A stretch of 64,000 bases of DNA, taken from positions 255,501-319,500 of the forward strand of contig NZ_LMQU01000010.1 of NCBI RefSeq assembly GCF_001425445.1, written 5' to 3'. The notes below the pieces were generated by a model that saw nothing but the letters and a program-made list of their open reading frames with translations, had not been told where the DNA came from and searched no databases. Source of the DNA: Devosia sp. Leaf420 (GTDB lineage Bacteria > Pseudomonadota > Alphaproteobacteria > Rhizobiales > Devosiaceae). Both the position numbers and the translations under genes were made by a program. Position 1 is the first letter of the stretch. The number at the start of each line of letters is the position of its first letter. Shown in pieces: positions 10,690-47,383 of the stretch.

Positions 10690-10707
10690 GATGCTCTCCA
10701 TGTTCAG

Positions 10708-19700: not shown

Positions 19701-22305
19701 CAGATCTTTCCGATAGCTGACCCTTGTTGGGCAGTCTCCCGGCAATGAGCCTTGCCTCGGCGGCGACACCCTTGAGGCTTCGCATCCAACTGACCAGGTC
19801 CTCGAGGGGTTGAGGGTCCGTACGTTCTCCACGCCAATCCGAACCAAAGGCGGCTCGACCGAGAGCGTCCCCCTCCCTGACCACTCGACGGGCTTCCTTG
19901 CCTTTCGCCAGCAGATCAAGCAATCGGATGCTCTCATCGGGCGGTATGTTGGGGTCGGTCAGAAGTGTCTTGATCAGCTTGTCGGCCTTCCTCCAGTCGC
20001 CGTTGGCGAACTTGAGGAAGCTTTTGCCGTGCATGGCGATGGCTGTTCGCGCAGCAGAAGTGTCTGTTTCCCAAGCGGCATCGGCAACCTTGCCGGATAG
20101 TTCCTGGCGTGTGCGAGACAATGTGTCGACCGCTTCTGCCAGATCGCCGGCCTGATCCAGTCCGCGCTCCCAAATCGCTGCCGCGAAGGCCTCCGGACTG
20201 ACATCAGGCGCAACGGCCACTCGATCCGCGGTGGTCACGAGCTTGTCGATGCCGCCGAACGTGCTCAGTGGATCCGTAGTCCCGAGCTGCTGCTGCAAGT
20301 CGGTGGCGGCACGCAGAAGTTCGGGGATCAGGGTCGACAACTCGCCGAAGACTGCAAGGTCGGCATCGGTGTGTTCGGGCGGCACGATCCCGTACCACCC
20401 GATCAGCCGATCGACAGGCCAATTCCATGCCGGTGCCTTGAACTGTCGGTCGAGCTCGTTGCGCAGCTCGGATAGCGTCCTGCCTTGAGCAACGAGTGCT
20501 CCAACCTCATCAAGGCGGGATGTCCAGGCCGGACTGGCCAGCGCAGCATCATCGAGCTCAGGAGCCGTGCTGACCCGCTTTGCCAGTTGCACCATGTCTG
20601 CGACGCGCTCGGCATCGGCCGAAGGGACAGTTTCAAGATTGCGATCGAGCTCTGCGATGCGCGAACGAAGTTGAGGCAGTTGCTCGAGTGCGGAGCCAAT
20701 ACGCTTCATCAATCGCTCGAGATCCATCGGGCTGATGCCCTCGACCCCAACCCCGTACCACGGGTGCCGAATGGGCAATCCGATCTCGGTCACGCGTTCC
20801 GCCAGTTCTCCAAGCAGACGGCGGAGCTCCCCTGCATGATCGGCATCCCATGCCGCAGCAGTGCTAAGTTCGATGTCGACTGGTGCTTGGCCAAGCTGCC
20901 TCAGCCGTGTCAGTTGCCCCATGACTTGGAACGGAGACAAACCATAGGGCTGGAAGCGGCGGTGCAGGCGAACGGGATGCGAGTTCAAACGATCGCGCGC
21001 AGTCGTGAGTCTTGCGTCGAGGCTTTCGGCCGTCGTTCTTCTCGGCGCGCCGAGATCCCAAGTGCGCTGCAGCTCCATCAACAGCGATCGCTTGTTGGCT
21101 TTGTTGGAATGGAGCTCCAGGCACGCGTCGCCTACGCCGGCCTGGTCGAGCCTACGTTTGACCACTTCCAATGCGGCCATTTTCTCTGCGACGAACAACA
21201 CCGTTCGGCCATCGGCGATGGCTGCGGCAATGATATTGGCGATAGTCTGGGACTTGCCGGTGCCCGGCGGCCCTTGGATGACCAGATCCCGGCCCTTGCG
21301 AGCTTCATGGATCGCCATGGTCTGCGAGCTGTCGGCATCGACGATGTGGAGCATTTGCTGAGGCGCAATATGGTCGTCCACCCGCGCGTCCTCGGACAAC
21401 ATGGGCTCGCCGCTGTCGAAGCCATCTGCCAAAAGACCCCGCACCAGCGGCCTGTCGATGAAGCTGTTCCCGGCGGGCCAAAGCTTGGGATCAAGGTCCC
21501 GGTACATCAGAAACTTGGCGAACGAGAAAAAGCCAAGGACCATGTCGTCGGTCTCGACCGACCAGTCGACCTTCGTTGCGATCGCTGCACGAACGCTCTC
21601 GATATAGGCGACGGGATCGAATTCATCGGTGACGTCGAAGGTGGGTAGCTTGATAGCGTGAACGCGGTCAAGGAAAGCTTCCAACGAAAGGTTGGACGCA
21701 AAGTCCTCAGGCCTGGCGCGCAGCCTGAACCTTTCGGCAGCAGTGCTCCGTTCGAGCGATACGGGGACGAGGATCAGAGGAGCATAGCGAATGTTCTCGG
21801 CGTTGGTGGGGTCGACCCACTTCAAGAGACCCATCGCCAGATAGAGAATGTTGACGCCCTGTTCCTCCTCGAGCGTGCGAGCGTCGAAGTAAAGATCGAG
21901 CAAGCGCTTCTGCAGGCCGTTCGGCGTCATCCTGGTCTGCAACTTGGTGTCGCGGTGGCGAAGCAGCCTGCCATCGCCGTCGCGCTCATCATCGTCCGGG
22001 AACGCGATCTCGATGGCTTCGGCCTCGTCCTCCTCCTCGGGATTGTCCCGGCCCTTGGCGCCTGCGAGGAAAGTCATCGGTTTGGAGTCGCCGACGAGGA
22101 TCCGAAAGACTTCGCTGGTGCTCTCTCCAACGATGTCGATCGTCTTCGCGCTCTTCGAGAAACGTGGGACGTTTAGAAGCCTGTTCCGTGCCGAAAGATC
22201 GAGCAGCTCCGTCCTGGCCCTCTCAATCTTATCGGTGATGGAGAGGTTGCTTTGAAAAACGGAAGACTCGGAAGTTTCCTTAGCGGCTGCAGCGTCGTCG
22301 ATCAT
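16744..22305 (-). CDS. DUF4011-type SF1 helicase with C-terminal Vsr-like nuclease
   Basis: About 1853 residues from the ATG at 22305 (GGGAGAGA upstream; an earlier in-frame ATG at 22344 has no such site). Order: N-terminal DUF4011 region; Walker A GPPGTGKSQT near residue 347; a long helical insertion (about 420-1100); Walker B DEASQIQP near 1230; later SF1 motifs (WHYRSRHQSLI, LENVQGDERDVILISVGY, NVLISRAKRR); a Vsr/MTES_1575-type nuclease domain (about 1520-1620, FIDLAI ... GIECDGASYH ... RDRDRLRQ); and a C-terminal DUF3320-like region. Proteins with this build occur in defence islands, where they probably unwind and cut foreign DNA. Here it stands nearly alone, with only the small sunset-domain gene downstream. 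Antiphage activity is inferred. Confidence 0.88.
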   Translation of the reverse strand: MIDDAAAAKETSESSVFQSNLSITDKIERARTELLDLSARNRLLNVPRFSKSAKTIDIVGESTSEVFRILVGDSKPMTFLAGAKGRDNPEEEDEAEAIEIAFPDDDERDGDGRLLRHRDTKLQTRMTPNGLQKRLLDLYFDARTLEEEQGVNILYLAMGLLKWVDPTNAENIRYAPLILVPVSLERSTAAERFRLRARPEDFASNLSLEAFLDRVHAIKLPTFDVTDEFDPVAYIESVRAAIATKVDWSVETDDMVLGFFSFAKFLMYRDLDPKLWPAGNSFIDRPLVRGLLADGFDSGEPMLSEDARVDDHIAPQQMLHIVDADSSQTMAIHEARKGRDLVIQGPPGTGKSQTIANIIAAAIADGRTVLFVAEKMAALEVVKRRLDQAGVGDACLELHSNKANKRSLLMELQRTWDLGAPRRTTAESLDARLTTARDRLNSHPVRLHRRFQPYGLSPFQVMGQLTRLRQLGQAPVDIELSTAAAWDADHAGELRRLLGELAERVTEIGLPIRHPWYGVGVEGISPMDLERLMKRIGSALEQLPQLRSRIAELDRNLETVPSADAERVADMVQLAKRVSTAPELDDAALASPAWTSRLDEVGALVAQGRTLSELRNELDRQFKAPAWNWPVDRLIGWYGIVPPEHTDADLAVFGELSTLIPELLRAATDLQQQLGTTDPLSTFGGIDKLVTTADRVAVAPDVSPEAFAAAIWERGLDQAGDLAEAVDTLSRTRQELSGKVADAAWETDTSAARTAIAMHGKSFLKFANGDWRKADKLIKTLLTDPNIPPDESIRLLDLLAKGKEARRVVREGDALGRAAFGSDWRGERTDPQPLEDLVSWMRSLKGVAAEARLIAGRLPNKGQLSERSAQVRTFLDRARILYNRLWSGLGTTAREMLGNPPGVESIDLRATVSTLENMAVVNRLYASEALDQNATAGQRIERLKLLQTGISARATLVAAGELGTMAFGSAWADLQSDWARLDAAVLWVSKNEDIRALAARVPDRQNVGNVASTVQAAVMQLLADIDAILLSLEADPAILFDTESVSSTPLEAIEQRLSAWRGSEEKLSQWLNYKVRANRAEELGAEALVGRLEDGRTLPNDLVQYFDMAYYEALFRSQTSHDPELGRFDGEQHGRLAQEFAALDLERMKASRFEAVNAHHAGIPSSAGGLGPVGVLKAEIARRRNHMPIRQLMSRAAPAIQALKPVFMMSPLSIAQFLPPGQFVFDLVVMDEASQIQPIDAIGAVARAKQVVVVGDERQLPPTRFFSKMTSGEAEDEGDDGAQVSDIESILGLFSARGLPQRMLRWHYRSRHQSLIAVSNREFYENKLFIVPSPYTAEAGMGLRFHYIENGVFDESVNKVEAMAVAEAIIRHAKVSPEQSLGVATFSLKQRREIQDQVELLRRANPDTEQFFQSHPSEPFFIKNLENVQGDERDVILISVGYAKNKQGYMAMRFGPLSADGGERRLNVLISRAKRRCEVYASITDDDIDLERGKGKGVIAFKLFLHYARTGKLGLSERSGRDMDSVFEEQVASALQARGYQVHPQVGIAGFFIDLAIADPERPGRYILGIECDGASYHDARSARDRDRLRQAVLEDHGWIIHRVWSSDWFQRPRAELEKVIAAIERAKVELDSREERLEAQRRAVPVDIVTIERHDVDIIDLAHTEEPSIPAYVEASISGLNTELHETPLAVLAELVRQVAEAEGPVHRDEVVTRLRTAWGLMRAGGRIDAHVERAIEMASARGTIVREGDFVTTQTREVLVRDRSNVQSAGLRRWDYLPPSEIDRGILTLVEENFGATEDEVVQALSRQLGYKATSAQLRDAIGKRIETLKSSGRLKLEDHILAVPSVEHVE

Positions 22306-22344
22306 GGTCTCTCCCTCTGTGGCTATAGAGGTCGTTCCATGCAC

Positions 22345-34897: not shown

Positions 34898-34904
34898 TAA
34901 CCCG

Positions 34905-34936
34905 ATGGCCCGCACTGAAGTTCGCGGGCCATTTTC
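34905..34936 (+). terminator. terminator after the cysteine hydrolase
   Basis: A 9-bp inverted repeat (34905-34913 and 34924-34932) with a 10-nt loop runs into TTTC, 8 bases after the stop codon. Confidence 0.65.
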
Positions 34937-35040
34937 TGATCTAGGTGGAAGCGCGCTGAGTCGTACACACGGTAATGCAACAGCGCCTCTGATCTAATTT
35001 CTTTGAGCAAATCCGGCTTGCTCTGAGAGCGCCAATGCGC

Positions 35041-38000
35041 TCACGCAAGTTCATGTACGCGAACCTCTGGCACCACAGCTTGAGCGATTTCACAAAGATG
35101 CCGGTGATGCGTGAGATAGATGACCTGCCCAACCGTTGCCATCTCACCGAAGAGCCGAAAGACCTCCTCGGAGCGGACATGATCGAACGTCTCCATGATG
35201 TCATCTGCGATAAATGGGACCGGTGCGCGCGCCTGGGCAAACTCGTAGTATCCAGCGAGCCTCAGAGCGAGGTACAGTTGAAACCTGGCGCCCTTGCTCA
35301 GAGCGTCCGCAACCTTGGACGGACCATCCTTCTGAATGGCGATCAAGACCTCGCCATTCTTCGACGGTTGCGTCGCGAGGCCCGAGTAATGACCTCTCGT
35401 CATGAGTGAGAAGGCCTGAGACGCCTTGTCCATCATCGCCGATCGATGCTGATCCCGATAAGTTCGAAGAGCATGGCTCGCCGAAAGAATTCCCAGACGC
35501 AGGCGGACATATCGTGCTGCTGCCTCTTCCATTTCAAGGACAACTGTCCGCCGTTGAGCATCCAGTCGGGCGACGGCGCTGTCGCTGCCGATGGCGTCAA
35601 GTTTATCGATGGCACGCGTTTGCCGGACGAGGTGCTCCTTGAGGGCATCCGTGCTATTCTCAAGTCGTTGCTCAAGCTGCACCTTCTCCAAAAGAACAGC
35701 ATCCTCGTCCAAGCCATCGAGCGTGTCGGCAGCTTCGTCCAAAGATCTAACGGCAAGTTCAGCGGTCAGTCTGATCTCTAGGTCGGATATATCTTTCCGT
35801 ACTCGATCCCTGTCCTTGAGGAGCTCTTCCTGCTCCGCTACCTGCATCAGATTATCGGCTGCGAATGCACGAAGAACCTCGGTTCTGGCCGATATGAAGG
35901 CTTTCTCTTCAGCTAGCAGAACATCACGTGCTATCATCGCAGCCTCGATGTCCCCGCTCACGCCATCCCTATTCGCACGTGCTCTTTCTGCCAGTTCCAA
36001 TCGCCGGACCAGTGCTGCTGCCATTTGTTCGGGGGCATCGAGATCGAGGGGATGAGCGCATGCTTCGGCAATGGCCACGACCTCATTCCTGAATAGCTGT
36101 TGATCGGCTTCCATCTTCTCGATCCGTAGACCCATGGCATCACGGTCTACAAGAGCCTGAGCTAAGAGGTCGAGCTGGTCGAGCACTCCGCCGATCGCTG
36201 CTGCTGGAAGACCTCGCTGAAGCCACGTTGCCGCCAAGGCGTTGGTAATCGCTTCGACCCATTCTTCCTCGCGGCGCATGGCCGTATCGACAGCCCGCTT
36301 CCTGGCAGCGAGTTCTTCCTCCCGCTCAGCAAGAGTGCGCAACGCCTCTGTATGTTCGGCATCCAACTTCGCCTGTCTGGTCAAGAAAGTTTCGGCGAGT
36401 GCGACTACTTCTTCGAGGCTGCCGGAGGTGTCGGCCGTAAGTCCGACGCGGGCCAACGCCTCGATGATGTCGGAACGAAACTGCACAATTTCGCCCTCAA
36501 CGCGAGTGAGGGAGCTTTTCGCGGCCCCCGCTCGCGTGAAGGCATCAAGGGACTCTTCACGCGCTACTACGATTTCTTCAATCGCGGACAACAGATGTTC
36601 AGGATCCACCAGATCCAGTGACAACCTCCCCAACGAGGTCGATTGGCGCATAGCGCGAACAATCGCGCCCTGTTCCTCGTCGATGGCATCCAGTTCCCTT
36701 TTGACAGATGCCTTGGAGCTTTCAGCGACTGCGAGCGAAGCCAGAGTTGCACGTCGCTCTTCCAAAGCTCGCGCGTTTTGCGAACGAGCGGCTGAAACCG
36801 CATCGTCTTCGCGCAGAGTTTCTGCAAAGACATCTGCTGATTGCGGGAGCAGATCTTGCCGGTGCGCTTTCCATGCCGTGTCACGCGCGACGCGCACCCG
36901 CAACGCTTCCGCGTCATCTGGGATTTTCCCATTGGCATCGAACGCTTCTCGACGTCCCAGCAATTCGCGAATCGTCGCGTCATGGCTTGAGATTTGATCC
37001 GCGAGAACGGTCCTCCTAGACCGAAGGTCTGCCGATGAATTGCGCCAGCTGCTTATCTGTTGCTTGTTCGGTACCGCGCTACTAGCCAAAGACTCGCCGT
37101 CACCGGTCCACGGCCGCAACCGCATCGATGAAGTTTGCCACTCAAGCGTGCAATCTTCCAAACGCTTGATCGTCTGACGCCTTTCCTGAGCAAGCCCACT
37201 CTGCGCGATCTTTGACCGCAATGCTTCCAAACGAGCCCTGCTTGCGGCTGGCACTGCCCGTTCCTCAGCAACGCGCTCCTTCGCCGCTTCGAGCGCCACT
37301 GCGGCCAAAGCCAACTCGTCGCGTGCAGAACTTATCGCCGCGCTCAGACTGGTTCGCTGCTCGAATAGACCGCGTACCACCCCCATCGTTGCGGCCGGAA
37401 TGAGGAGGCCTCGAGGATCTTGATGACCTGTCCGGCCCAGTGCGGCCAAATTGACCGCGACGGCTTCATCGAGAATTTTCAGCTCTGACCGACGGGCTGG
37501 CAAGTCTAGCCCGGCGGCGACGTGTCGAGCTTTTCGATCGCCCAAGGCATTGATGCGCTCGGATACCGTGATGATCAGGTCGTCGCCCACAAGATCCGAT
37601 AGGCGATCACGAAGCCTTTCCAGTTCGGCAGTATTGGCTGCCAGACGCGCGGCGATGTCGGCTTCCTGAACCAGCATTTCCGCGACAGAACCCGTCCAAG
37701 TCTTCGGCGGAGTCGGCAGAGTAGGCATGGTCGACAGGATCTCTGCCTTGCGACGATGGTCCGCCAACATTGGCAACGCGCGCAGCAGCTTTAGAATTGC
37801 TTCTCGACGCGCGACCATCACAGCGTGTTCCGCCAGCGCCTGGTCGTATTTCTCCGTCGCCTCAATACGCTCTGCCTCGAGGGACTCGTACTTGGACCCC
37901 TGCGTGTCGATGGCATCGCGTTCGGCTTTGAGTTCCGCCAACCGCTTCTTCAATACCGCTAGTGCAGTTCCCTGGGCATGTTTGCGATAGATACTATCGG

Positions 38001-38511
38001 CCTCCACCTCGAGCGATTGGAGCGTTTCGCTAGCGCCTGACAGGCCAGCGCTGGCGGTGAACAGCAGCTTGCCTAGGTCGCCTTTGGACTCAAGGATGGC
38101 CTTTCCACCGTCTTCCAGGGTCTCGTCGTCCAGCGAAAACATATGGCCGTAGCTGTCACGCGACAGGCCTGCGAGGTGAGCGGAGAGTGCGACTTCGGCA
38201 ACTGGCTGATTGTCGGCATCAAACAAAGAATTGCTACGCTGCTTGGTCCGCAGAAAGGAGCGTTCCAGACCGTCGGCTTCCAACACGCCGCCTACCCGCA
38301 TGCTGGCGTATTCATGAAGGAAATTGTAGCGACTTCGCTCTTCGATACCGAACAGCAAGTCGAGATATCCGGACAACGCTGTTGATTTACCGGCCTCGTT
38401 CAAGCCGAAAATGATGTGCAGGTCCGCGCCCGAAGTCGGCGCCGGTCCGAAATCAATGGTCCTATCGGTGAACTTCCCATATCGAGTTAGATCAAGTCGG
38501 CGTAGCCTCAT
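35041..38511 (-). CDS. YhaN-like SMC-type ATPase
   Basis: 1156-residue ATPase of the Rad50/SbcC-like YhaN group. The N-terminal head has Walker A FGLNEAGKST (residues 35-44) and a Q-loop region. Long coiled-coil arms fill the middle (Glu/Ala/Arg-rich, about 180-1000). The C-terminal head has the signature region GARFQLYLALRLAGYYEF and Walker B PFIADDIMETFD, then a YLTHHRHL H-loop. The start overlaps the stop of the phosphoesterase gene (ATGA), the usual arrangement for SbcD/SbcC-type pairs. The complex would process DNA ends or structures. It is last in the long minus-strand gene train. Confidence 0.92.
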   Translation of the reverse strand: MRLRRLDLTRYGKFTDRTIDFGPAPTSGADLHIIFGLNEAGKSTALSGYLDLLFGIEERSRYNFLHEYASMRVGGVLEADGLERSFLRTKQRSNSLFDADNQPVAEVALSAHLAGLSRDSYGHMFSLDDETLEDGGKAILESKGDLGKLLFTASAGLSGASETLQSLEVEADSIYRKHAQGTALAVLKKRLAELKAERDAIDTQGSKYESLEAERIEATEKYDQALAEHAVMVARREAILKLLRALPMLADHRRKAEILSTMPTLPTPPKTWTGSVAEMLVQEADIAARLAANTAELERLRDRLSDLVGDDLIITVSERINALGDRKARHVAAGLDLPARRSELKILDEAVAVNLAALGRTGHQDPRGLLIPAATMGVVRGLFEQRTSLSAAISSARDELALAAVALEAAKERVAEERAVPAASRARLEALRSKIAQSGLAQERRQTIKRLEDCTLEWQTSSMRLRPWTGDGESLASSAVPNKQQISSWRNSSADLRSRRTVLADQISSHDATIRELLGRREAFDANGKIPDDAEALRVRVARDTAWKAHRQDLLPQSADVFAETLREDDAVSAARSQNARALEERRATLASLAVAESSKASVKRELDAIDEEQGAIVRAMRQSTSLGRLSLDLVDPEHLLSAIEEIVVAREESLDAFTRAGAAKSSLTRVEGEIVQFRSDIIEALARVGLTADTSGSLEEVVALAETFLTRQAKLDAEHTEALRTLAEREEELAARKRAVDTAMRREEEWVEAITNALAATWLQRGLPAAAIGGVLDQLDLLAQALVDRDAMGLRIEKMEADQQLFRNEVVAIAEACAHPLDLDAPEQMAAALVRRLELAERARANRDGVSGDIEAAMIARDVLLAEEKAFISARTEVLRAFAADNLMQVAEQEELLKDRDRVRKDISDLEIRLTAELAVRSLDEAADTLDGLDEDAVLLEKVQLEQRLENSTDALKEHLVRQTRAIDKLDAIGSDSAVARLDAQRRTVVLEMEEAAARYVRLRLGILSASHALRTYRDQHRSAMMDKASQAFSLMTRGHYSGLATQPSKNGEVLIAIQKDGPSKVADALSKGARFQLYLALRLAGYYEFAQARAPVPFIADDIMETFDHVRSEEVFRLFGEMATVGQVIYLTHHRHLCEIAQAVVPEVRVHELA

Positions 38512-39761
38512 TGTAGGTCTCTTTCCCGCAGACGCGCCGTGACGAGATCGGTTCCTTCAGAAAGCGCTCGCTCAAGGAAGTCGTTCGCCTCGCTCTCATC
38601 CTTTCCAGCGAAGTCCCTCACTTCCGGCGGCAATTCATCGACGAGTCGGTGGATCAATGCGCGTGCTTGCTCGCGAAAAGCCTCCGACCGAGCGTTCGAT
38701 CGCATGGTCTGCGCGAGCTCTTGCACCGGATCCGCACCATCGACGAACTCCTCAAGCGTCCGGACATCGATGTCGAGTTTCTCTAGCCAAACAGAGCCAG
38801 TTCGTTCACCGATCTGTTCGGCTTCGGCGAGCAGAAGATCCTGATCTCTTATTATCTGCCAAGCGAGCGATGTGTTCCCGACCAGCTTCAGGCGAACGAC
38901 TAGGTGCGGCGAGAAGATCGAGCTTCGCAACTCTTCCAGCGCAGATCGAATGGCATGGACTACGTCATGCCATTCGATTGCGCCGCTGATATTGACGTCC
39001 AGGCGTTCGAATTGTGCGATGCTGGTGGCACGTTCTTCGATTTCGATGCTGCGATCGTCTCGGACCGTTACCAGCGATACCGACTTCTGGCCGCTCTCAT
39101 TGATGTCCCGGCCTTGGGGCATGCCGGGCATCACGACCTTTCGGCTTCCTGCGTGAATTGTGCGTGAATGGATATGGCCCAATGCCCAGTAGTCGAAACC
39201 ATGTCCGTGAAGGTCCGCAACATTGCAAGGAGCATAAACGTCATGACCGGGTGCGCCGGCGAGGCTGGTGTGCATGATGCCGACGTTCACCATGCCATCG
39301 CTGGGCCCAGCATATTTGGACAGCAGACTTTCGGGGGCTCTCGTCTGAGAGAAGCTCAAGCCGTGAAACGCGACGTCGTTCCCTGGCGCACGAAGGATCA
39401 CTGCGGACGCACGTCCACCGAAAATTGTGACGCTGTCGGGGAAAACCAATTGCTTGCTTATGCGCGACAAGGCGTCGTGGTTGCCACGAACCTTCAAGAC
39501 TTTGATCCCCGCTTCATGCAGGCGCGACATCTGCGTGGCGAGGAACCGGGCCGTCTTCATGGATGTCTGGTCGCCGTCGTAAAGGTCGCCTGCGATGATC
39601 AGGGCGTCGACGCGTTCAGAGAGGCAAAGGTCAACGATCGCGATGAGCGCCTTTCGGCTGGCATCGCCTACCACTTCAGCGAGCTCAGGGTTGCGAAGAG
39701 CAAGAGACCGCAGAGGGGAGTCGAGATGGATATCGGCGGTGTGGACGAAGCGAAAAGCCAA
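38508..39761 (-). CDS. YhaO-like metallophosphoesterase (SbcD/Mre11 type)
   Basis: 417 residues from a TTG at 39761, chosen because GGAGGA lies 4 bases upstream. It then begins AFRFVHTADIHLDSPL. The Mre11/SbcD metal motifs are all present: DIH near residue 9, GDLYD, GNHD, and HTS and GHIHSR. The C-terminal region would bind the ATPase partner. Its stop overlaps the start of the YhaN-like gene. The pair would form an ATP-dependent nuclease. A gap of 109 bp separates it from the upstream HTH gene, so it could belong to that operon or have its own promoter. Confidence 0.92.
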   Translation of the reverse strand: MAFRFVHTADIHLDSPLRSLALRNPELAEVVGDASRKALIAIVDLCLSERVDALIIAGDLYDGDQTSMKTARFLATQMSRLHEAGIKVLKVRGNHDALSRISKQLVFPDSVTIFGGRASAVILRAPGNDVAFHGLSFSQTRAPESLLSKYAGPSDGMVNVGIMHTSLAGAPGHDVYAPCNVADLHGHGFDYWALGHIHSRTIHAGSRKVVMPGMPQGRDINESGQKSVSLVTVRDDRSIEIEERATSIAQFERLDVNISGAIEWHDVVHAIRSALEELRSSIFSPHLVVRLKLVGNTSLAWQIIRDQDLLLAEAEQIGERTGSVWLEKLDIDVRTLEEFVDGADPVQELAQTMRSNARSEAFREQARALIHRLVDELPPEVRDFAGKDESEANDFLERALSEGTDLVTARLRERDLQ

Positions 39762-39870
39762 GAAGTCCTCCAAGTCAGCGGTTTCGAAGAGTGTATCAGT
39801 CTGTCGGCTAGCGGCTAGCGTGCGGCAAGAACTAACACGTCAAACTTTCAAGGGGTCGAGAAGCTGGCTA

Positions 39871-40140
39871 CTAAGGACTAGGAGCCTGTGTCTCTTGTCT
39901 TCTGATCCACTCCGCCAGTGTGGATCGTCGCATGCAGACGATCTTGCCGACACGGAATGTCGGCAGGTGACCACGCCAGATGTGCGCAGCAGCCTGCTTG
40001 TGGGACATCCCCATATACTTTGCGATGGCATCGATGCCGATCAGCGCATCGAGACTCGTTGATGGCTCATGGGCCACAAGATCGTGCTGACTCAAAGGCT
40101 GAGCTCCAGGATGCGAGTGGATGGGGCAAGGCGCTGCCAT
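39871..40140 (-). CDS. excisionase/MerR-like HTH protein
   Basis: Up to 89 residues. The core LIGIDAIAKYMGMSHKQAAAHIWRGHLPTFRVGKIVCMRRSTLAEWIRRQE is a winged helix-turn-helix of the excisionase/AlpA type. The ATG at 40140 overlaps the end of the GIY-YIG gene by 49 bp; an internal GTG at 40077 would avoid this but lacks a ribosome binding site. Such proteins bend DNA for recombinases or regulate island genes. Confidence 0.75.
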   Translation of the reverse strand: MAAPCPIHSHPGAQPLSQHDLVAHEPSTSLDALIGIDAIAKYMGMSHKQAAAHIWRGHLPTFRVGKIVCMRRSTLAEWIRRQETQAPSP

Positions 40141-41006
40141 ACGCCTTTGTTGGAAATGTGCGCGCCGGTTATGACCTTGGCGGCCAGCAGAGGTGACGGG
40201 AAGCGAACGTTGGCAAGAAGACGCCAGCGGTCCTGAAGGCCAGGCATGTCAGCGAGCACACCTAATTGCGTAAGCTTGCGACGGCGCATTGCGATTGGGG
40301 GCAGCAGTGCCTGGTTCTCGCGCATCCGCATGTCCGAGCCTGCTCTGACGACGAAACTGCCATCCGCCAAAAGGTATCCCCAAGCGCTTATCCCATCGTA
40401 GCTGAGGTAATGATCGTCCTGGGCTCCGGTGAAATCCACGATCTCCACATCTGGATCTTCGCGCTCGTCGGTAACCTGCGGGCTTTGGGTTCGATAAGCG
40501 TCCAATGCTCGACAGCCAGCAACATATAGAAGGTCCCGCGACTGTTCGATCAGCCCCTCCAAAGCGGCTTTTTCTCCGAGCTGACGAGAATAGAGCGGTG
40601 GGATTTGATTGACCTCAAGCACTGCGTGTGTCGATGCGGCCACCATTTCGTGCAGTCGGGACTCCGCATATTTCACGTCGTCCTTGGTCAGTCTCAGATC
40701 GACCGCCGTTACGCAGAAAACCTCCTCGAAGTGATGCTTAGAGGCATCGGCCTTGTGCTCGAGGAGGCGGCGACGCACATCCCCGGCCTCACCAGGGCGA
40801 ACGCATAGCCTATTGTCCGTCTTGGATCTCGTGGTGAGGAGATAGAAGCCCGGAGTAGCCGGCAGTCCGGCAACCATGAGGTCGTCTAATCGCGTCCATG
40901 GTGCCGCGTGGACCCGCAGCACCGATGTCCGGCACTCGATCACTCGGGGACCATCTCGATCGCCATCAAAAAGGTGCGTCGAAAGGGTTGTACCGATCTT
41001 GTTCAT
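40092..41006 (-). CDS. GIY-YIG-like nuclease with C-terminal DUF4357
   Basis: 304 residues from the ATG at 41006, which overlaps the upstream stop (ATGA); GGGGAAG lies 8 bases before. Residues about 50-130 follow the GIY-YIG fold (GFYLLTT ... RLCVRPGEAGDVRRRLLEHK ... HFEEVFCVTA), with the Tyr of GFY and Arg of RRRLLEH in catalytic positions. The second Tyr of the motif is not obvious, so activity is uncertain. The C-terminal region (LLADGSFVVRAGSDMR ... ISNKGVWQ) matches DUF4357, a common partner of GIY-YIG domains in restriction and defence genes. Confidence 0.75.
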   Translation of the reverse strand: MNKIGTTLSTHLFDGDRDGPRVIECRTSVLRVHAAPWTRLDDLMVAGLPATPGFYLLTTRSKTDNRLCVRPGEAGDVRRRLLEHKADASKHHFEEVFCVTAVDLRLTKDDVKYAESRLHEMVAASTHAVLEVNQIPPLYSRQLGEKAALEGLIEQSRDLLYVAGCRALDAYRTQSPQVTDEREDPDVEIVDFTGAQDDHYLSYDGISAWGYLLADGSFVVRAGSDMRMRENQALLPPIAMRRRKLTQLGVLADMPGLQDRWRLLANVRFPSPLLAAKVITGAHISNKGVWQRLAPSTRILELSL

Positions 41007-41308
41007 GCTCGCCGCTTCCCCAAAAGATAGAAACGATTGAGGGTGCGGGCGCATCCCAGTTGCTCATCCAGGAAGAAGAGAGTCGAGGTCGTCACTGGTC
41101 CACCACAAAGGCCGGGACGGCCTTCCACCTGTCCCGTAAGAGCAAGCTCGAGGCGGTAGGTGATCTCCCAGTCCGTGATGAGAGGAGCGCCGATGCGATC
41201 CTCGAAGGACGGAGCAGCCCGGCTTTCAAGTCGCCGGAGATCGCCCGAAAGGGTATGCACGAGTTCCGAATGTCGTCGCACGAAATCGCTATTGAAGGTC
41301 AGGTCCAT
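41003..41308 (-). CDS. DUF6634-like small protein
   Basis: 101 residues. The pattern APLITDWEITYRLELALTGQVEGRPGLCGGPVTTSTLFFLDEQLGCARTLNRFYLLG fits DUF6634, a small family of unknown function recurrent in rhizobial islands. It is translationally coupled to the GIY-YIG gene. Confidence 0.6.
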   Translation of the reverse strand: MDLTFNSDFVRRHSELVHTLSGDLRRLESRAAPSFEDRIGAPLITDWEITYRLELALTGQVEGRPGLCGGPVTTSTLFFLDEQLGCARTLNRFYLLGKRRA

Positions 41309-41358
41309 CCTGAAGCTCCATTAGAAAGTGTTTTTTGATCTTTGGGGCGGGTGACGCG

Positions 41359-41589
41359 CTAGGCCGGCTCGTCCATAGCGCTTGCGCGATCACGAACCGT
41401 CGCGCGTGGGAACAACTGGATCACCTCAGCATCGTGTCTGGTCGAGCAAGAGGCAATCGCATCCTCAACCCTGAGCTGAGCAATCACGAGCAGTGAGCGC
41501 GTGGCGGCGGTCTCAAAGGCCTCTGGACCAAGGTCTTCATGGACCCGAACGAGCGCTGTGATCACCCGGATAACGAGATCATCCACCAT
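41359..41589 (-). CDS. small hypothetical protein
   Basis: 76 residues, helical in its first half (VDDLVIRVITALVRVHEDLG). It overlaps the end of the AAA protease gene by 11 bp, suggesting coupled translation. No domain recognised. Confidence 0.55.
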   Translation of the reverse strand: MVDDLVIRVITALVRVHEDLGPEAFETAATRSLLVIAQLRVEDAIASCSTRHDAEVIQLFPRATVRDRASAMDEPA

Positions 41590-43522
41590 GGCGCATCTCC
41601 TGCTTGATGACGTCGAGAAATTCCTCCCGCTTGAGAAAGCGCTTCTCGAGCAAGGCGTCCGCGACAGCCGTAATCAGCTCGGCATTTTGAACCACAACGG
41701 CATCAGTGCGTTCGTGCAGTTCCTTCAGATCTGCTTCGACGGATGCGAAGAGCGACCCGTTCATCCGAAGCAGCATTCCCATTTCTTCTGGCTCGCCACG
41801 AAATGCGAGGGTGTCTCCCAACCCCTGAGAGGCCTGCAACGAGGCGATCAAAGTGGTCGCTCGCCCAAGATCGCTGTCGGGGTGGCCTCCGCTGCCGGTG
41901 CCAATGCTGCCCAACAAGATCTTCTCGGCCGAACGACCGGCAAGGAGCGTAACCACGCGTTTTTCGATCTGATCTCGTGTGGCGACGATGTCATGCTGCT
42001 CGAAGGTGACCTGTCCTCCTGCCGCACCCGACTGGATGAGCGAAACGGAACGAAGGACGCCGGACCCGATGACATGGGTGATGACCGCGTGACCCGCTTC
42101 GTGCGTCGCGATGCGCCGGAGCATTTGCAAAGGGCGATCTTCCGGAGGGGCCACGATCGACATCAGGTCGTCCGATGTCATCCTGGATCCACTACGTCGT
42201 GCCAAGGCTCTTGCCCGCTTGACCGCATCCGCAACCATTGCCCCAGTGGCGTTGGCCATCATGGTCGCGAAGAGACCGAGATCCGTGTTCTGCAGGTCAT
42301 CTTTTAGGTGCTGGCGGAGGATGAGTTCCACCTCTTCCGTGGAAGGAAACCCGATCTGGACCACCCGAGACAATCGCCCGGGTCGGATCAGAGCTTCGTC
42401 CAGGCGCTCAGGGTAATTCGTGGCGCCGATGATGATTAGGTTGCGATTTGCCTCGGTGGCGCCGTCCAGCAAGGTGAGCAGGTGGGCGATGACCGGCAGC
42501 CACCAATCCCGCCCTCGATTGGAAAGGGTTGAACGATCGGGAACACTGTCGATTTCATCGATCAGGATGCAGGCGGGGGCTTCGGCCCGCGCTGCAGCGA
42601 AGACGGAATCCATCTGCTTGATGACGCCATCCAGATTCCCGGAGCTATTCAAGAACCAGGCAGCTGCGCTGGTATCAAAAAGCGGGATTCCAGCTGATTG
42701 GGCAACTGAACGAGCGAAGCTTGTCTTGCCTGTACCGGGAGGACCTCCGAGCACGATCCGCGATTCAAGTGCATCGAAATCCGTTTCCCCGCGGCGCCAC
42801 GCCGACAGATCCTGGATGAGATTCGTTGCCCATTCCTTCGCAGGCCCATAGCCGATCAAGTCCTGCACAGGCACAGCGGGGATCGGACGGCGCTTCTCGG
42901 TCTGCTTGCGGTCGACAATCGCCTTCAACCGGTCAGCACAATCTTGGCCAGTTGATCCGAGGCGCAAAGAGGTCGCGAACTCGTCAAAGCTGACGTCATC
43001 GAAGCTGAGGTCGGAAAGGTCGACGCCCTCGCCAGTGATTGTCTCAATGACCATTTCCAGGATTTCCGCACTGGGCTGGGCGATTTCTACCCATAGGTCA
43101 TGGGATGCGAGCATGATCGATGGCAGCATCTCTTTCGGGTCTTGGGACACCCCGAATACCTTGGCCCCGCAGGCAAGCTGAACCGAGATTTCCGATGTCC
43201 GGTCGTCTTCCCTGCGCTTTACTTTCTCGCGCGCGGTAATCTTTCCAGAGAAGGTAGTGAAGCTTCGTAGATGCCGCGCGACTGGATCGACCCAGGAGCC
43301 GTCGGGAACTTTTACCACGATGCACTGGACGCCCCCATGCTTGATCTTCGCAATGGCGTCCAGTCCCGCCGCTTGCTCCAGAGCCAGACGTGGCAAGAGT
43401 GTGATTGCCGTTTCGGGACATGCCTCGTTGGGCTCGTCAGACGTTTCCTCGTCGTGGCGGTCGTTCGCCTTGATGGTCATTCTGATCCTCGTTCGTAGGG
43501 CTTGTTCGGTCATGACGTTCAT
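41579..43522 (-). CDS. FtsH-like AAA zinc protease without membrane anchor
   Basis: 647 residues from the ATG at 43522; ATGs at 43513 and 43480 are alternatives, and the frame upstream overlaps the previous gene. The N-terminal 215 residues are unlike FtsH and contain no membrane segment. Then AAA: Walker A GGPPGTGKTS (about 259-268), Walker B CILIDEIDS (about 318-326), and second region of homology with ATNYPERLDEALIRPGRLSR including the Arg finger. The M41 peptidase has HEAGH (about 474-478) with a later Asp as probable third ligand (HPDSDLGRATTLI). It should be a soluble ATP-dependent protease. It is second in a regulator-controlled gene train with nuclease-like genes. Confidence 0.88.
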   Translation of the reverse strand: MNVMTEQALRTRIRMTIKANDRHDEETSDEPNEACPETAITLLPRLALEQAAGLDAIAKIKHGGVQCIVVKVPDGSWVDPVARHLRSFTTFSGKITAREKVKRREDDRTSEISVQLACGAKVFGVSQDPKEMLPSIMLASHDLWVEIAQPSAEILEMVIETITGEGVDLSDLSFDDVSFDEFATSLRLGSTGQDCADRLKAIVDRKQTEKRRPIPAVPVQDLIGYGPAKEWATNLIQDLSAWRRGETDFDALESRIVLGGPPGTGKTSFARSVAQSAGIPLFDTSAAAWFLNSSGNLDGVIKQMDSVFAAARAEAPACILIDEIDSVPDRSTLSNRGRDWWLPVIAHLLTLLDGATEANRNLIIIGATNYPERLDEALIRPGRLSRVVQIGFPSTEEVELILRQHLKDDLQNTDLGLFATMMANATGAMVADAVKRARALARRSGSRMTSDDLMSIVAPPEDRPLQMLRRIATHEAGHAVITHVIGSGVLRSVSLIQSGAAGGQVTFEQHDIVATRDQIEKRVVTLLAGRSAEKILLGSIGTGSGGHPDSDLGRATTLIASLQASQGLGDTLAFRGEPEEMGMLLRMNGSLFASVEADLKELHERTDAVVVQNAELITAVADALLEKRFLKREEFLDVIKQEMRHGG

Positions 43523-43533
43523 CGATCTGGTTG

Positions 43534-44148
43534 TCAGATGTTGGAGGTGACCCACGTCGAAGTGGTGATCGGCTTGCTGCGGTCGATATCGATGAGCCCC
43601 GAGGCGCCCATCGCCAGCACTGCCCCAAAAGGATCGCGATGGCCCCCAAGGGCAAAAGCGCATTCGTGCAACGTGCTGATGCGCGCTGAGCGCAGGTGCT
43701 GCAGAACCACGTCGATCTCTTTGCCCGAATAGGTAGCCTTACGACCCAAGCTGATCGCATTCGCAACCATGCCACGCACGCCCCTTGTCAAAGACGATTG
43801 CGGGAGCAAAAGACACCGCGTCCGCTCGGCAGATGCCTGCCGCTTTACTTCAAGCGCCAAATGGCGCAGTTCAGCGTCCTTCCAGACGGTGTCGATCAAG
43901 GCGATGCCGGTGATCTTGCTGCCCGCGGACGCAAATCGCTTCGCGACGTAGCTGCGCTCATCGAAACCAACGGCGCTCATCATCTGCTGAACAAGAGGAT
44001 CGTCGCCCAGGGCGACCACATCCGGGGTCGCATAGAGCAAGTTATTCACCGCCGTGAGAAGGGCACTGTAACGCCAGCTGGAGCGCTGATCCTGGAGCGC
44101 ATCCGGACGCAAAAAAGCATCCGCCGCCCATGCATGGGTTGCGAGCAT
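43534..44148 (-). CDS. unknown protein, first gene of the train
   Basis: 204 residues, cytoplasmic. One segment, GIALIDTVWKDAELRHLALEVKRQ, has an Asp after a hydrophobic strand and EVK 14 residues later, which resembles a PD-(D/E)XK nuclease core; this is only suggestive. The C-terminus (ALGGHRDPFGAVLAMGASGLIDID) is Gly-rich. An AAAGG lies about 10 bases before the ATG. It starts the minus-strand train opposite the XRE gene and ends 11 bp before the AAA protease. Confidence 0.65.
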   Translation of the reverse strand: MLATHAWAADAFLRPDALQDQRSSWRYSALLTAVNNLLYATPDVVALGDDPLVQQMMSAVGFDERSYVAKRFASAGSKITGIALIDTVWKDAELRHLALEVKRQASAERTRCLLLPQSSLTRGVRGMVANAISLGRKATYSGKEIDVVLQHLRSARISTLHECAFALGGHRDPFGAVLAMGASGLIDIDRSKPITTSTWVTSNI

Positions 44149-44233
44149 CGTGGTTTAACCTTTCGTCTTGTTCGGGCGCGTTGAGCCTCGGCAACCAGGC
44201 CTTGGGAAAAATCCCATCGTCTGGATGAACCTA

Positions 44234-44297
44234 ACATAGCGGATTTCTATGGTGATAAAAGCCCCATATGGGGATATCGTCACCATAGATGCTATGT
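44234..44297. promoter_or_regulatory. nested inverted-repeat operator array
   Basis: Three symmetrical elements share one centre: a perfect 12-bp palindrome CCCCATATGGGG (44262-44273); TCTATGGTGA/TCACCATAGA (44246-44255 and 44280-44289); and ACATAGC/GCTATGT (44234-44240 and 44291-44297). They lie between the divergent XRE gene and the 8-gene train, as expected of a tightly controlled bidirectional promoter. Confidence 0.7.
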
Positions 44298-44403
44298 ATG
44301 GTTAACGAGCGGTTTGCTACTCATCAGTTTCCCCTAGCACAAACCCTCGAAGTTGGATGACCCGGACTTGCGCCCTTGGGGGCCACGCAGGACAATACCG
44401 GCC

Positions 44404-44667
44404 ATGGATTCTTTCGCGCGGGCAGACCACACGCAGGTCACTTCGGATCAGATACGTGCAGCCCGGGCATTGCTGGGCTGGACGCTGGTCGAAGCCGCGG
44501 AGCACATGGGCGTGGGAAAGAACACGCTCAACAGAATTGAAACTGGCAAGGGCAATGCCGGGGACAGGACACTGAAGGAACTGGTCGCAGTTTTTGAGGC
44601 CGCTGGAATTACGTTCGTCACTTCGGGTAGCACCGTCGGCGTGCTGTTCACGCCGGCTCTTCAGTAG
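44404..44667 (+). CDS. XRE-family transcriptional regulator
   Basis: 87 residues from the ATG at 44404 (AGGA upstream); a TTG at 44353 would add 17 residues. The helix-turn-helix is QIRAARALLGWTLVEAAEHMGVGKNTLNRIETGKGNAGDRTLKELVAVFEAAGITF, the short XRE type used by phage-like and island repressors. It diverges from the minus-strand train across a large nested dyad. It probably represses the train and itself. Confidence 0.88.
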   Translation: MDSFARADHTQVTSDQIRAARALLGWTLVEAAEHMGVGKNTLNRIETGKGNAGDRTLKELVAVFEAAGITFVTSGSTVGVLFTPALQ

Positions 44668-44701
44668 CGCCCCGCACAATCGGCGCTGATGGCAGCTGAC
44701 G

Positions 44702-44886: not shown

Positions 44887-45603
44887 TCAAAGAATAAGGT
44901 CGTCGAGTTCTGATGGTGAAAATGGGATGTCCTCGTGCTCTTCCGGAAGTGACACGGGCGAGAACGCATCGATGACGTGGTTGATCTGAATCAGTCGATA
45001 AAGGGGAAGGTGACGCACGAAGCCTTCAAGCTCTTCGAGCAACTGCCAGCCGAATTCGATCTGTCTGCCTTCGGGTTCGAATGCGCTGGCGGCCAAGCGA
45101 CAGTTCTTTCCCTGGTGCTCGATATAGATCTCCATGAAACGGATCTGCAAATCCGAGGCCTGTTTCAGCTTGCGCGCGCGATAGCTGGACTCCCTAGATG
45201 CCAGAGCGTCGATTGAAAGACCCTTCAAAAGGGGTTCGGCTGTGCGAACATCCGCTGATAGGGTGACACGGGGAATAAAGGTCACCCCTTGCCGGATACG
45301 GCGCCAGGAAAAGGTTTCGCCTTCGCAGCTGCGCTCTACGATGCCCTGGCCCTCGGCCCAAGACAGCAGTTTTGCCGCGCCTTGAGGATCATAGTGATAT
45401 TCCTCAATAGCAAGGTACCGCTCGATTGCCTGTTTGACATCGATGCGTGCTGCACCTTGGAACAGCCTGTCCAATTGTCGATCCAACACGTAGAGCTCGG
45501 AACGTGCCTCCGGAAAGAAGCGCCGCCAACGGCCGATCTCGAAGGTGAAATCGAACGCCCGGATGTCCCAACTATCTACGCCCTCGTGAGGCTTTCCTCT
45601 CAT
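44887..45603 (-). CDS. hypothetical protein coupled to the integrase
   Basis: 238 residues. Its ATG overlaps the integrase stop (ATGA at 45600-45603), so the two are translated together. It has no recognisable domain. A helical, winged-helix-like middle (VKQAIERYLAIEEYHYDPQGAAKLLSWAEGQGIVE) and an acidic C-terminus (EEHEDIPFSPSELDDLIL) are visible. It may assist integration or excision. Confidence 0.65.
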   Translation of the reverse strand: MRGKPHEGVDSWDIRAFDFTFEIGRWRRFFPEARSELYVLDRQLDRLFQGAARIDVKQAIERYLAIEEYHYDPQGAAKLLSWAEGQGIVERSCEGETFSWRRIRQGVTFIPRVTLSADVRTAEPLLKGLSIDALASRESSYRARKLKQASDLQIRFMEIYIEHQGKNCRLAASAFEPEGRQIEFGWQLLEELEGFVRHLPLYRLIQINHVIDAFSPVSLPEEHEDIPFSPSELDDLIL

Positions 45604-47207
45604 TTCAATTCCTCTACGCGATATGCCGGGATCTTCGAGATCGCGGCGAGCATGACTTCCGGCCAGGCCGTGCCGTAGCTCTGGCCCACGGTCTTGCTCG
45701 CATGGCCGTCGATGCGGTCGATGATCTGTTCCTGAATGCCAGCAGCAAGGAGGCTGGAGCGGAAGAGATGGCGCCAGCCATGATTGGGATCGACGCCGGT
45801 GTCGGTGATGCCAACGGTGTTCCGTACCCAGTGCGCGAGGCTCTCGCCCACCTTCTTGTACTGAGGATTGGCGTCCGAGCCGTCGCGACGGCGACTGGGG
45901 TCATAGAAGAGATGCCGACCCTCGCGCGCCTTAACGTAGTCAATGAACCCTTGATCAAGAAGATCAGGATGCAGAGCCACCCATCTTGCCTTGCCGTTCT
46001 TGATCGTCCCTGCCTCCGGTGTCAGCCTGATGCACCAGACCTTCTCGCCGTTTCGCGACTTGCGTTCCTGCACATCCTCCGCCCGAGCCTGGGACACCTC
46101 GTTCACACGCGCCCCGGTGTAGCAGAGGATCCAGGGAATCCACCGCCGCGCTGCCAGCCCTTCGTCGGTAAGGTTCTTCGTGCGCGGCAGTCGGGTCGCG
46201 GCAAGGATGCGCTCAGCCTCGTCCTGATCAAATTCGCGATCTCGAAGGATAGCCTCGTCAGGCACCGTGACCTTGGCGTTCTCGAACGGCTGGTGGCCGA
46301 CGCGCTTTTTTCGCTTGGCCCAGATGAACAGCGTCTTTGGATGAGCCATGTCGGCGTCACGGACAGTCCGTGGGGACACCAGGGTCAGCCGGTGCTCGAT
46401 CCAGCGTTCGGCGTCGGCTTCGCTGACAAGTCTCATGTCGTCATGGCCAAGGAAGCTGAAGAAGGCCACCAGGACCCCGGTCTGACGCTTGATGCTCGAT
46501 GCCGCCGGCTTCACGTCCGCCAAATAGGCTTGATGCACCTCGCGCCATGGGACCGGCGTGAGCGCGGCCCGGCCTTTTTCCATGTTGGCCAAAGCCGGAA
46601 AGCGCCCAGCATCGGGATCCGGACTCAAGTCCCCGCTCGCCCGCTTGGCCAGCTCGCGATAGGCTTGTGCCAGTGCTCTCGTGGCGGCCATGTGCAGCCG
46701 CGAAAGCGACTGCTGGTCGATCCGCAGCTCGAGCAAATCCAGCATCTCGCTCACCCGTCCGCCAACAAGGCGCGCGGCCATGCTCGGCGGCGTGAAGGCG
46801 AAGCTCGCACCAAACGGTCTCCGGGATGGTTCGCTGGCAGGCATCAGGACCGCTTGGGCCTGGCCCAACTTTCCGAGCCAGTAGTCGCGATCGACCGGAT
46901 CGTCGCCATATCTGGACATGTGGGAATGATAGAGCCGGCCGGCCAGTGCTTCGATTTCCTGCACAGAAAGGGTCTTGGGCGGCGTCTGTCCCATGGCGGC
47001 TGCCAGCTCGCGCTCGGCCCAGTCCGCGTCCACCCGGGCGGCGACTTCGGCATGCAGCCGGCGCGCGGTCGCAGGGTCCTTCGTGCCGAGCGAGATCTTG
47101 ACCTCGCGCTTGCCGATCAAGGCGCGAAGGCGCTCAGGGACGACCTTTCGAAACTGATAGATTCCAGTGCGCGGATGCACCGAAGGACGCGCTGCGGCCA
47201 AGACCAC
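45600..47207 (-). CDS. island tyrosine integrase
   Basis: 535-residue site-specific recombinase with an N-terminal DUF6538-like arm domain (about 1-60: RTGIYQFRKVVPERLRALIGKREVKISLGT), a core-binding domain (about 220-300), and a catalytic domain. Catalytic residues: Arg367 (CYTGARVNE), Lys403, His476/Arg479 (HGWRH), His502 (DGHAS) and Tyr511 (GQSYG). It starts at a GTG; AAAGGAG lies about 10 bases upstream inside a direct repeat. The gene begins 87 bp from the 3' end of tRNA-Ser and reads away from it, the classic position of a tRNA-targeting integrase. Confidence 0.93.
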   Translation of the reverse strand: MVLAAARPSVHPRTGIYQFRKVVPERLRALIGKREVKISLGTKDPATARRLHAEVAARVDADWAERELAAAMGQTPPKTLSVQEIEALAGRLYHSHMSRYGDDPVDRDYWLGKLGQAQAVLMPASEPSRRPFGASFAFTPPSMAARLVGGRVSEMLDLLELRIDQQSLSRLHMAATRALAQAYRELAKRASGDLSPDPDAGRFPALANMEKGRAALTPVPWREVHQAYLADVKPAASSIKRQTGVLVAFFSFLGHDDMRLVSEADAERWIEHRLTLVSPRTVRDADMAHPKTLFIWAKRKKRVGHQPFENAKVTVPDEAILRDREFDQDEAERILAATRLPRTKNLTDEGLAARRWIPWILCYTGARVNEVSQARAEDVQERKSRNGEKVWCIRLTPEAGTIKNGKARWVALHPDLLDQGFIDYVKAREGRHLFYDPSRRRDGSDANPQYKKVGESLAHWVRNTVGITDTGVDPNHGWRHLFRSSLLAAGIQEQIIDRIDGHASKTVGQSYGTAWPEVMLAAISKIPAYRVEELK

Positions 47208-47293: not shown

Positions 47294-47383
47294 TGGCGGA
47301 GAGAGAGGGATTCGAACCCCCGATGGAGTTGCCCCCATGCCGCATTTCGAGTGCGGTGCATTCAACCGCTCTGCCATCTCTCC
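47294..47383 (-). tRNA. tRNA-Ser (anticodon CGA)
   Basis: 90 nt including an encoded CCA. The acceptor stem GGAGAGA/TCTCTCC, the anticodon stem-loop with loop CTCGAAA (CGA, reads UCG), a long variable arm typical of serine tRNAs, and the T arm with GGTTCGAATCC are all visible on the minus strand. The gene is intact, and the island integrase lies just downstream, making its 3' end the likely attachment site. Confidence 0.95.

Follow-up and report, generated by a model that had tools for sequence, protein, structure and literature searches.

Mu relies on the host unfoldase ClpX, as does at least one type I-F CRISPR-associated transposon (CAST), in contrast with the element-encoded protease considered here. 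MuA is named among the substrates of ClpXP in the available part of one source (PMC5415555), and the accessible part of another reports that ClpX increases type I-F CAST insertion, with the hypothesis that it aids in disassembly of the post-transposition complex (PMC12326709). Transposition of I-F3 CASTs is controlled by XRE regulators, as stated in an excerpt of a third (PMC11406308). Here we analyze a 64,000-nucleotide (nt) stretch of the genome of Devosia sp. Leaf420 (contig NZ_LMQU01000010.1, positions 255,501 to 319,500 of the forward strand; hereafter the window, in whose own numbering its features are given), in which eight minus-strand genes, designated A to H, lie opposite a short divergent XRE gene. 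This gene train is a composite, made up of a conserved core (XRE, gene A, a soluble FtsH-like AAA+ M41 protease, and a DUF6634 gene, perhaps together with gene C) and further co-directional genes. We consider it roughly an even bet (probability near 0.5) that the core is an accessory module of Tn7-like transposons, present here without transposition genes, in which a transposon-derived AAA+ protease and adaptor partners act on DNA-bound protein complexes.

Profile comparison relates gene A to TnsA

Gene A (43534..44148, minus strand), which encodes 204 amino acids, has no match in Pfam. Using hhalign, we compared a profile of 37 A proteins with one of 15 TnsA-like proteins from the elements of relatives and obtained a probability of 96.3 across 197 columns (P 1.9e-9). 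The score was 66.9, whereas 30 column shuffles scored no higher than 16, and control comparisons of the A profile with profiles for DUF6634, TnsB, TnsC, and XRE all stayed below 1%. A second TnsA group matched the A profile at 91.6% across 96 C-terminal columns. Judged by these comparisons, A is a homologue of TnsA over its full length that lacks the catalytic E, D, and K residues of TnsA. The catalytic positions of the 15 TnsA-like proteins hold E in 13, E in 13, D in 15, and K in 14, whereas the same aligned positions of the 37 A proteins hold these residues in 0, 2, 1, and 0 cases, with the mapping taken from one single profile alignment. An earlier note on this DNA had seen a possible EVK nuclease core in A. 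The EVK falls after the positions that are catalytic in TnsA, and a nuclease role for A was rejected because those positions are not retained.

Homologues of A occur in 21 of 136 genomes of the same family (Devosiaceae), the own genome included. The TnsA-like alignment (A3) was also compared with solved structures, which gave nothing below E 0.9 and was not used. In the operons of six relatives (L043, L046, L047, L048, L050, and L053; L numbers denote sequence stretches of individual loci), a second, shorter A paralogue lies upstream of A. Two FtsH-like genes flank A in L034, L036, and L037, which hold relatives of the window A, and the second one is truncated in L035.

Gene B encodes a soluble FtsH-like protease

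Gene B (41579..43522, minus strand) matches the AAA (94.5 bits) and Peptidase_M41 (59.3 bits) models of Pfam above their cut-offs and has no clear hydrophobic anchor, in agreement with the soluble FtsH-like protease that had been proposed at this position. Its open reading frame (ORF) is open from 43663, inside A, and the likelier start is the ATG at 43522, 11 nt past the A stop, which yields 647 amino acids. A 14-row alignment of B and its relatives shows no variation in the Walker A residues, the HE..H motif, the third zinc ligand D598, or the arginine-finger positions. The HExxH pattern is present in 28 of 30 family members, the misses being one 255-residue piece and one full-length protein. 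With ATPase and protease motifs that seem intact, the enzyme looks active. The peak 19-residue hydropathy, a measure that is no membrane-helix predictor, is 1.31 for B and reaches 2.04 among 22 B-type proteins, five of which exceed 1.6 (four of the five after residue 450). Assignment of B as a canonical FtsH was rejected because it scores 168.9 bits against the cut-off of 600 for the FtsH equivalog model TIGR01241.

Adjacent FtsH-profile ORFs (about 550 to 620 and 245 to 272 amino acids) precede DUF6634 in L084, L086, L089, L091, L094, L102, and L109, where ATPase and protease are maybe split.

The gene train and its regulator

The train runs from 44148 down to 35041, and its description in the earlier note, as eight minus-strand genes with a divergent XRE gene, proved accurate in the position and strand of every ORF. 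The XRE-family helix-turn-helix regulator (44353..44667, plus strand; HTH_3 41.2 bits, cut-off 23) likely starts at an ATG near 44404, as judged by eye. Between XRE and A lies a loop-free, 44-bp inverted repeat (44246..44289) with 18 of 22 positions paired; shuffling the 255-nt intergenic sequence by dinucleotides 200 times never produced as good a repeat. An unusual operator had been suggested here; the repeat itself exceeds what shuffling produces, and it is a candidate operator for XRE. Control of the train by XRE is plausible from the divergent gene and the repeat. Across 34900 to 44700, promoter-like sites (2 against 2.6 expected) and terminator-like sites (4 against 7.8 expected) were not above chance, and hence no sigma-70-type promoter was seen for the train itself. 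The joints A-B, B-C, D-E, E-F, and G-H are close or overlapping.

The core recurs in relatives

Gene D (41003..41308, minus strand) scores 26.8 bits with the Pfam DUF6634 model, just under its cut-off of 27, and was aligned with 10 relatives. Gene C (41359..41589, minus strand) encodes a small protein of 76 amino acids with no family match. Single BLASTP comparisons found it weakly like small genes beside the FtsH-like gene in L043 (E 8e-5) and L050 (E 0.001). Together with the window, 27 stretches of up to 20 kb around A or FtsH-like matches gave a set of 28, in which the clusters held in common with the window were FtsH-like (26), A (22), XRE (16), and DUF6634 (13). Note that the FtsH-like and A counts are inflated by the choice of stretches around A or FtsH-like matches.

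The earlier note had proposed conserved co-occurrence of the FtsH-like, DUF6634, and GIY-YIG/DUF4357-type genes in other genomes as a check. For the first two genes, this co-occurrence was found. A scan of genome contigs with the DUF6634 alignment confirmed 113 loci, of which the best 80 were retained. In 46 of these 80, an FtsH-like gene lay 5 kb or less from DUF6634; TnsB lay within 10 kb in 18, and TnsB and the FtsH-like gene were both near in 14. We also surveyed the 136 family genomes, in which we recorded 71 DUF6634 places, 53 TnsB loci, 49 TniQ loci, and 111 soluble FtsH-like genes among the matches listed, with up to nine candidates scored per genome. FtsH-like matches below 282 bits were excluded; these were canonical FtsH proteins, which score near 240 to 247 bits, and a small number of fragments scoring as high as 254. 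At 47 of the 71 places, DUF6634 and an FtsH-like gene are no more than 3 kb apart, compared with 0.34 expected (expected counts were computed for 4.1-Mb genomes and random placement).

Relatives of the core accompany Tn7-like transposition genes

Several of the 28 stretches have Mu-transposase C-terminal, rve, TniB, and TniQ matches downstream of the FtsH-like gene. In the family survey, a soluble FtsH-like gene was found within 12 kb of 31 of the 49 TniQ loci (0.63 expected), and in 27 of these 31 the two genes share a strand, with the FtsH-like gene upstream and gaps of 4.7 to 9.1 kb. Above the Pfam TniQ cut-off, 26 of 39 loci had an FtsH-like gene within 12 kb; these control loci were picked by Pfam TniQ alone. 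For TnsB, an FtsH-like gene within 10 kb was found at 37 of 53 loci (0.64 expected), a figure that is biased because the TnsB queries were taken from module-bearing loci. Thirty-one of the 37 pairs are on the same strand, and the FtsH-like gene is upstream in all 31. Among the 44 top-scoring FtsH-like genes listed, 30 are near TnsB and 14 are not. Outside the family, the annotated order on the Bosea plasmid pB32-2 is AAA ATPase, hypothetical protein, metallophosphoesterase, DUF6634, Xre/MbcA, and then TnsA, which is followed by a Mu transposase, an AAA ATPase, and TniQ.

In a tree of 62 FtsH-like proteins, the window B clusters with four relatives, two linked to TnsB and two not, at a Shimodaira-Hasegawa-like approximate likelihood ratio test (SH-aLRT) support of 96, and linkage to TnsB requires six changes, against a mean of about 18 when shuffled. 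This was a quick tree with SH-aLRT support and no bootstrap, on which the linkage labels of L033 to L059 were assigned by hand. Proteins of 480 residues or fewer, those containing X, and the duplicates L048, L060, L062, L063, L066, L071, L079, L120, and L134 were left out.

The window copy itself has no such partners. None of 69 tns and tniQ proteins matched the window at 1e-3, and an intact Tn7-like element was rejected. Genome searches likewise gave no TnsB or TniQ match in the own genome, whereas the TniQ model found matches in 35 of the 136 family genomes and in 0 of 14 control genomes. We therefore regard the window copy as an orphan, which lies beside a tyrosine integrase.

A delimited element in Devosia oryzisoli

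One relative could be delimited as a complete element. L053 (genome G033) and L060, from Devosia oryzisoli, share 19,575 nt at 100% identity, and across three adjacent stretches of G033 the element ends at 3500 and 41287, giving a Tn7-like transposon of 37.8 kb. Its termini match at 27 of 30 bases and are accompanied by a 5-bp duplication (GGCGT); CGACTC/GAGTCG clusters occur at both ends and nowhere else in 59.9 kb. Genes in the order XRE-A-A2-DUF6634-FtsH lie within the element, between other genes and tnsABC-tniQ. In the region 3412-3500 of L216, the left end follows the 3′ terminus of a tRNA-Met gene by 12 nt, and this gene is a possible attachment site.

In copper-carrying elements, CTATAGTGACTAGAG-type motif sites occur between XRE and A (L053 8716, L055 11381, L060 8390, and L061 8377). 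We take CTATAGTGACTAGAG to be a probable MerR-type operator and made no use of it; the motif might tie the module to a metal response.

Several results weigh against the reading of the core as a transposon module. Smaller alignments weaken the match between A and TnsA to 65.4% and 70.7%, and with a smaller alignment the second TnsA group gave 1.1%. A search of the A sequence against the PDB found no TnsA and returned one match (E 0.013) to an unrelated enzyme, which was not used. Thirty-four of the best 80 DUF6634 loci are without a near FtsH-like gene, as are 18 of the 49 TniQ loci. Of the TnsB-near FtsH-like genes, 6 of 37 are on the opposite strand, and 74 of the 111 listed FtsH-like genes have no TnsB match within 10 kb. 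Both FtsH-like copies of the window genome are among the 14 top-scoring genes without a near TnsB. Finally, clear ends were obtained for one of nine elements tried, the other eight giving noise only.

Phosphoesterases and the case for defence

A second reading, which we regard as possible though somewhat unlikely, is an anti-phage or anti-plasmid defence in which the protease and DUF6634 would sense or disable invaders together with nuclease-like genes (the GIY-YIG type, phosphoesterase, exonuclease, and YhaO-YhaN), with XRE as repressor and transposons carrying the set as cargo. DUF6634 loci that are without an FtsH-like gene are in many cases of the Brucella/Ochrobactrum type and often beside a metallophosphoesterase. 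In 28 of 112 stretches, a metallophosphoesterase of one subfamily is found 1 kb or less from DUF6634/FtsH, which is consistent with a defence set; because 19 of those same loci went into the profile, this figure describes and does not test. On pCMU01, DUF6634 and its neighbours come after two TIR-domain genes, in the annotated order TIR, TIR, a helix-turn-helix gene on the opposite strand, DUF6634, hypothetical protein, metallophosphoesterase, AAA ATPase, 3′-5′ exonuclease, and metallophosphoesterase, which again fits defence.

The AAA part of B matches the IetA models of PADLOC with up to 59.9 bits, but this reflects the general AAA domain, as TRIP13 and proteasome ATPases score alike. IetS is subtilisin-like. 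An IetAS system was rejected, since B scores 50.4 bits against 510 for the curated IetA and no peptidase S8 match was found in the 10 ORFs scanned. PADLOC has no system that covers the core. Moreover, a near-fixed site immediately ahead of tnsA, as found in many elements, and a TnsA-like partner are both unlike what would be expected of free cargo. Defence or plasmid/phage exclusion was also the role suggested in the earlier note, and it is not borne out here: within the family, relatives of the core are frequently found with Tn7-like transposons, which had not been suspected there.

In five Methylobacterium loci (L078 8885-10306, L073, L081, L101, and L107), DUF6634 ends a much longer ORF, and genes for a phosphoesterase and a PolB-type exonuclease are also present.

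Genes E to H

Gene E (40092..41054, minus strand) matches the PADLOC profile PDC-S14 (125.4 bits, E 5.3e-37) over residues 13 to 308 of 320, a profile for which PADLOC sets no cut-off; this match counts in favor of defence. From an alternative start at 41006, its ATG would overlap the DUF6634 stop as ATGA. The GIY-YIG/DUF4357 label given to E finds mixed support. E has no match to Pfam GIY-YIG at 0.1 and scores 13.9 bits with DUF4357, far under the cut-off of 38.4, but its homologue in L205 matches GIY-YIG weakly (E 0.0027, 18.4 bits against a cut-off of 22.6).

Homologues of E are present in 19 of 297 genomes of the order, the own genome included. Co-occurrence of this gene with DUF6634 was found on a narrower basis: of 16 other fetched loci, six (L200 to L203, L205, and L206) have E next to DUF6634, and these six represent four genomes of one genus. 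We therefore give its membership in a unit less weight, and the probability assigned to the transposon module is unchanged. An AAA protein, which we take to be Lon-like, neighbours these E-DUF6634 pairs, and the M41 domain is absent in the one tested (L205). In L204, L208, L210, L213, and L214, the genes beside E are presumably those of type I restriction-modification systems.

Gene F (39871..40140, minus strand) encodes an excisionase-type HTH_17 protein, just under the Pfam cut-off (24.9 bits against 27). Gene G (38508..39773, minus strand) encodes a YhaO-like calcineurin-type phosphoesterase (Metallophos, 54.7 bits) and gene H (35041..38511, minus strand) a YhaN-like ATPase (AAA_27, 221.7 bits). 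G and H are adjacent with a 4-nt overlap, as in a YhaO-YhaN pair, and both domains exceed their Pfam cut-offs, so the earlier identification of such a pair stands. The window YhaO was rejected as a counterpart of the phosphoesterase found with DUF6634 at other loci, because the profile of that subfamily did not find it.

That all these genes form one unit, as the earlier note had it, does not hold for the YhaO-YhaN portion. YhaN homologues were found in 68 of the 297 order genomes, own included, and among 20 stretches around YhaN an adjacent YhaO-YhaN pair was present in 17 and the core beside the pair in 0. The pair thus occurs in relatives without the core, and its place in a conserved unit is not supported. 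In L199, an ORF of 263 amino acids somewhat like B lies five genes from a YhaO-YhaN pair.

Such independence is what would be expected if the core, the GIY-YIG-type gene, and YhaO-YhaN had separate functions and were co-directional on the island by chance, a composite that we judge unlikely. Two further results agree with it: C, E, F, G, and H have no tblastn match at 1e-4 in the 107 stretches L033 to L139, and the adjacency of E and DUF6634 is limited to one genus. Chance assembly sits less well with the close or overlapping joints of the train, with internal promoter and terminator signals that do not exceed chance, and with the recurrence of E beside DUF6634 in the six loci.

The island and the own genome

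Beyond XRE lies a tyrosine integrase gene (45600..47207, minus strand; DUF6538 and Phage_integrase), beside which is a tRNA-Ser(CGA) gene (47294-47383). A search for attachment-site repeats of the island found no exact match of at least 14 nt inside the window. An exact second copy of a 24-nt segment of the tRNA-Ser gene was located 411 kb from the island (contig C10 of the own genome, G000:C10:714151-714174) and may be another tRNA gene.

These neighbours suggest a further reading, in which XRE, the excisionase-type protein F, and the protease govern integration and excision by the tyrosine integrase. Repressor-protease pairs regulate other integrating elements. Besides the integrase and tRNA-Ser gene adjoining the module, homologues of the window integrase occur near relatives of A in L033, L034, and L035 and beside E in L201, L202, and L207. 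Nevertheless, most transposon-borne relatives are without such an integrase within the stretch read, and F is unmatched beside the core elsewhere, and we consider self-control of the island improbable.

A second tyrosine-integrase gene (8243-10701, minus strand) has an overlapping partner of 377 amino acids with no Pfam match, so that more than one element may be present in the window. A helicase-nuclease protein of 1866 amino acids (16744-22344, minus strand) carries DUF4011, MTES_1575, and DUF3320 and matches the PADLOC models PDC-S37 (1882.7 bits) and Hhe (760.1 bits). This strong candidate defence gene, which sits 12.7 kb past the downstream end of the train, keeps the defence reading alive. 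The same genome has a second FtsH-like/DUF6634 pair (G000:C16:58809-60994, L056), with an HEAAH motif and a long branch in the tree.

Proposed mechanism

We return to the core as a transposon accessory module. In the mechanism that we infer for it, including the adaptors, the substrates, the regulation, and the present function, the soluble AAA+ protease B would unfold or degrade complexes that are delivered to it, and A and DUF6634 would serve as adaptors that hand protein-DNA complexes to B. Within a transposon, B would target complexes of TnsA/B/C or a repressor, filling a role comparable to that of host ClpX for Mu and the type I-F CAST. Acting via the 44-bp inverted repeat, XRE would keep the operon down until entry or stress. 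The target of the window copy must be something else: recombination of the island itself, an element that enters the cell, or proteins from phages or plasmids. The module may now act on the first or the second of these.

The orphan module might instead confer immunity against Tn7-like transposons, which we consider quite unlikely. In that case A would mimic a transposase subunit, dock on incoming TnsB or TnsC, and together with DUF6634 hand the complex to B, and the same parts of intact elements would provide both self-control and exclusion of rival elements.

A set of Tn7-like elements of Alphaproteobacteria seems to encode an AAA+ protease of its own, in many cases accompanied by an inactive relative of TnsA. 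If the core is a transposon accessory module, the takedown and restraint of Tn7-family complexes would become testable with element-encoded parts, and orphan copies would reveal the reuse of a transposon control module on other islands.

Comparison with known systems

Literature searches returned no paper on DUF6634, and those that combined Tn7-like transposons with FtsH, protease, cargo, or defence gave no such module among the matches listed, with preprints and most subscription journals outside their scope. The words FtsH, protease, and peptidase occur 0 times in the main text of PMC8649781; protease occurs five times in PMC10293859, where the occurrence displayed in the available excerpt sits in a reagent list; and the sole mention of FtsH in PMC10910872 is a figure-legend gloss on HflK.

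Among defence systems, PDC-S14 of PADLOC is matched by E but is a single-gene candidate, whereas E is found here beside DUF6634 and a protease. IetAS shares with the train an AAA ATPase of the same broad class and the theme of proteolysis; by Pfam, however, the train has no subtilisin-type gene. The YhaO-YhaN pair, which is SbcCD-like, is matched in gene order and overlap by G and H, but it is usually free-standing and here ends a longer train.

Bacterial FtsH resembles B in its AAA and M41 domains and HExxH motif but is membrane-anchored, whereas B has no clear hydrophobic anchor. The same distinction applies to FtsH2 of Pseudomonas aeruginosa PACGI-1, described in the accessible part of its source as a membrane-anchored FtsH on a genomic island (PMC6629908): both proteins combine AAA and M41 on an island.

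The likeness to Tn7-like transposons (TnsABC-TniQ) lies in the relatives of the core, which are beside or inside such elements, and in A as a TnsA homologue. The window differs in having no TnsB, TnsC, or TniQ, and its A lacks those residues that are catalytic in TnsA. The Tn7 components named in the available portions of the Tn7 literature include no soluble AAA+ protease. As in the action of ClpX on MuA and type I-F CASTs, an AAA+ unfoldase would be coupled to a DDE-type transposon, a likeness offered as analogy only. In those systems ClpX is encoded by the host and works with a separate ClpP, whereas here the protease is a single-chain, FtsH-like protein encoded by the element.

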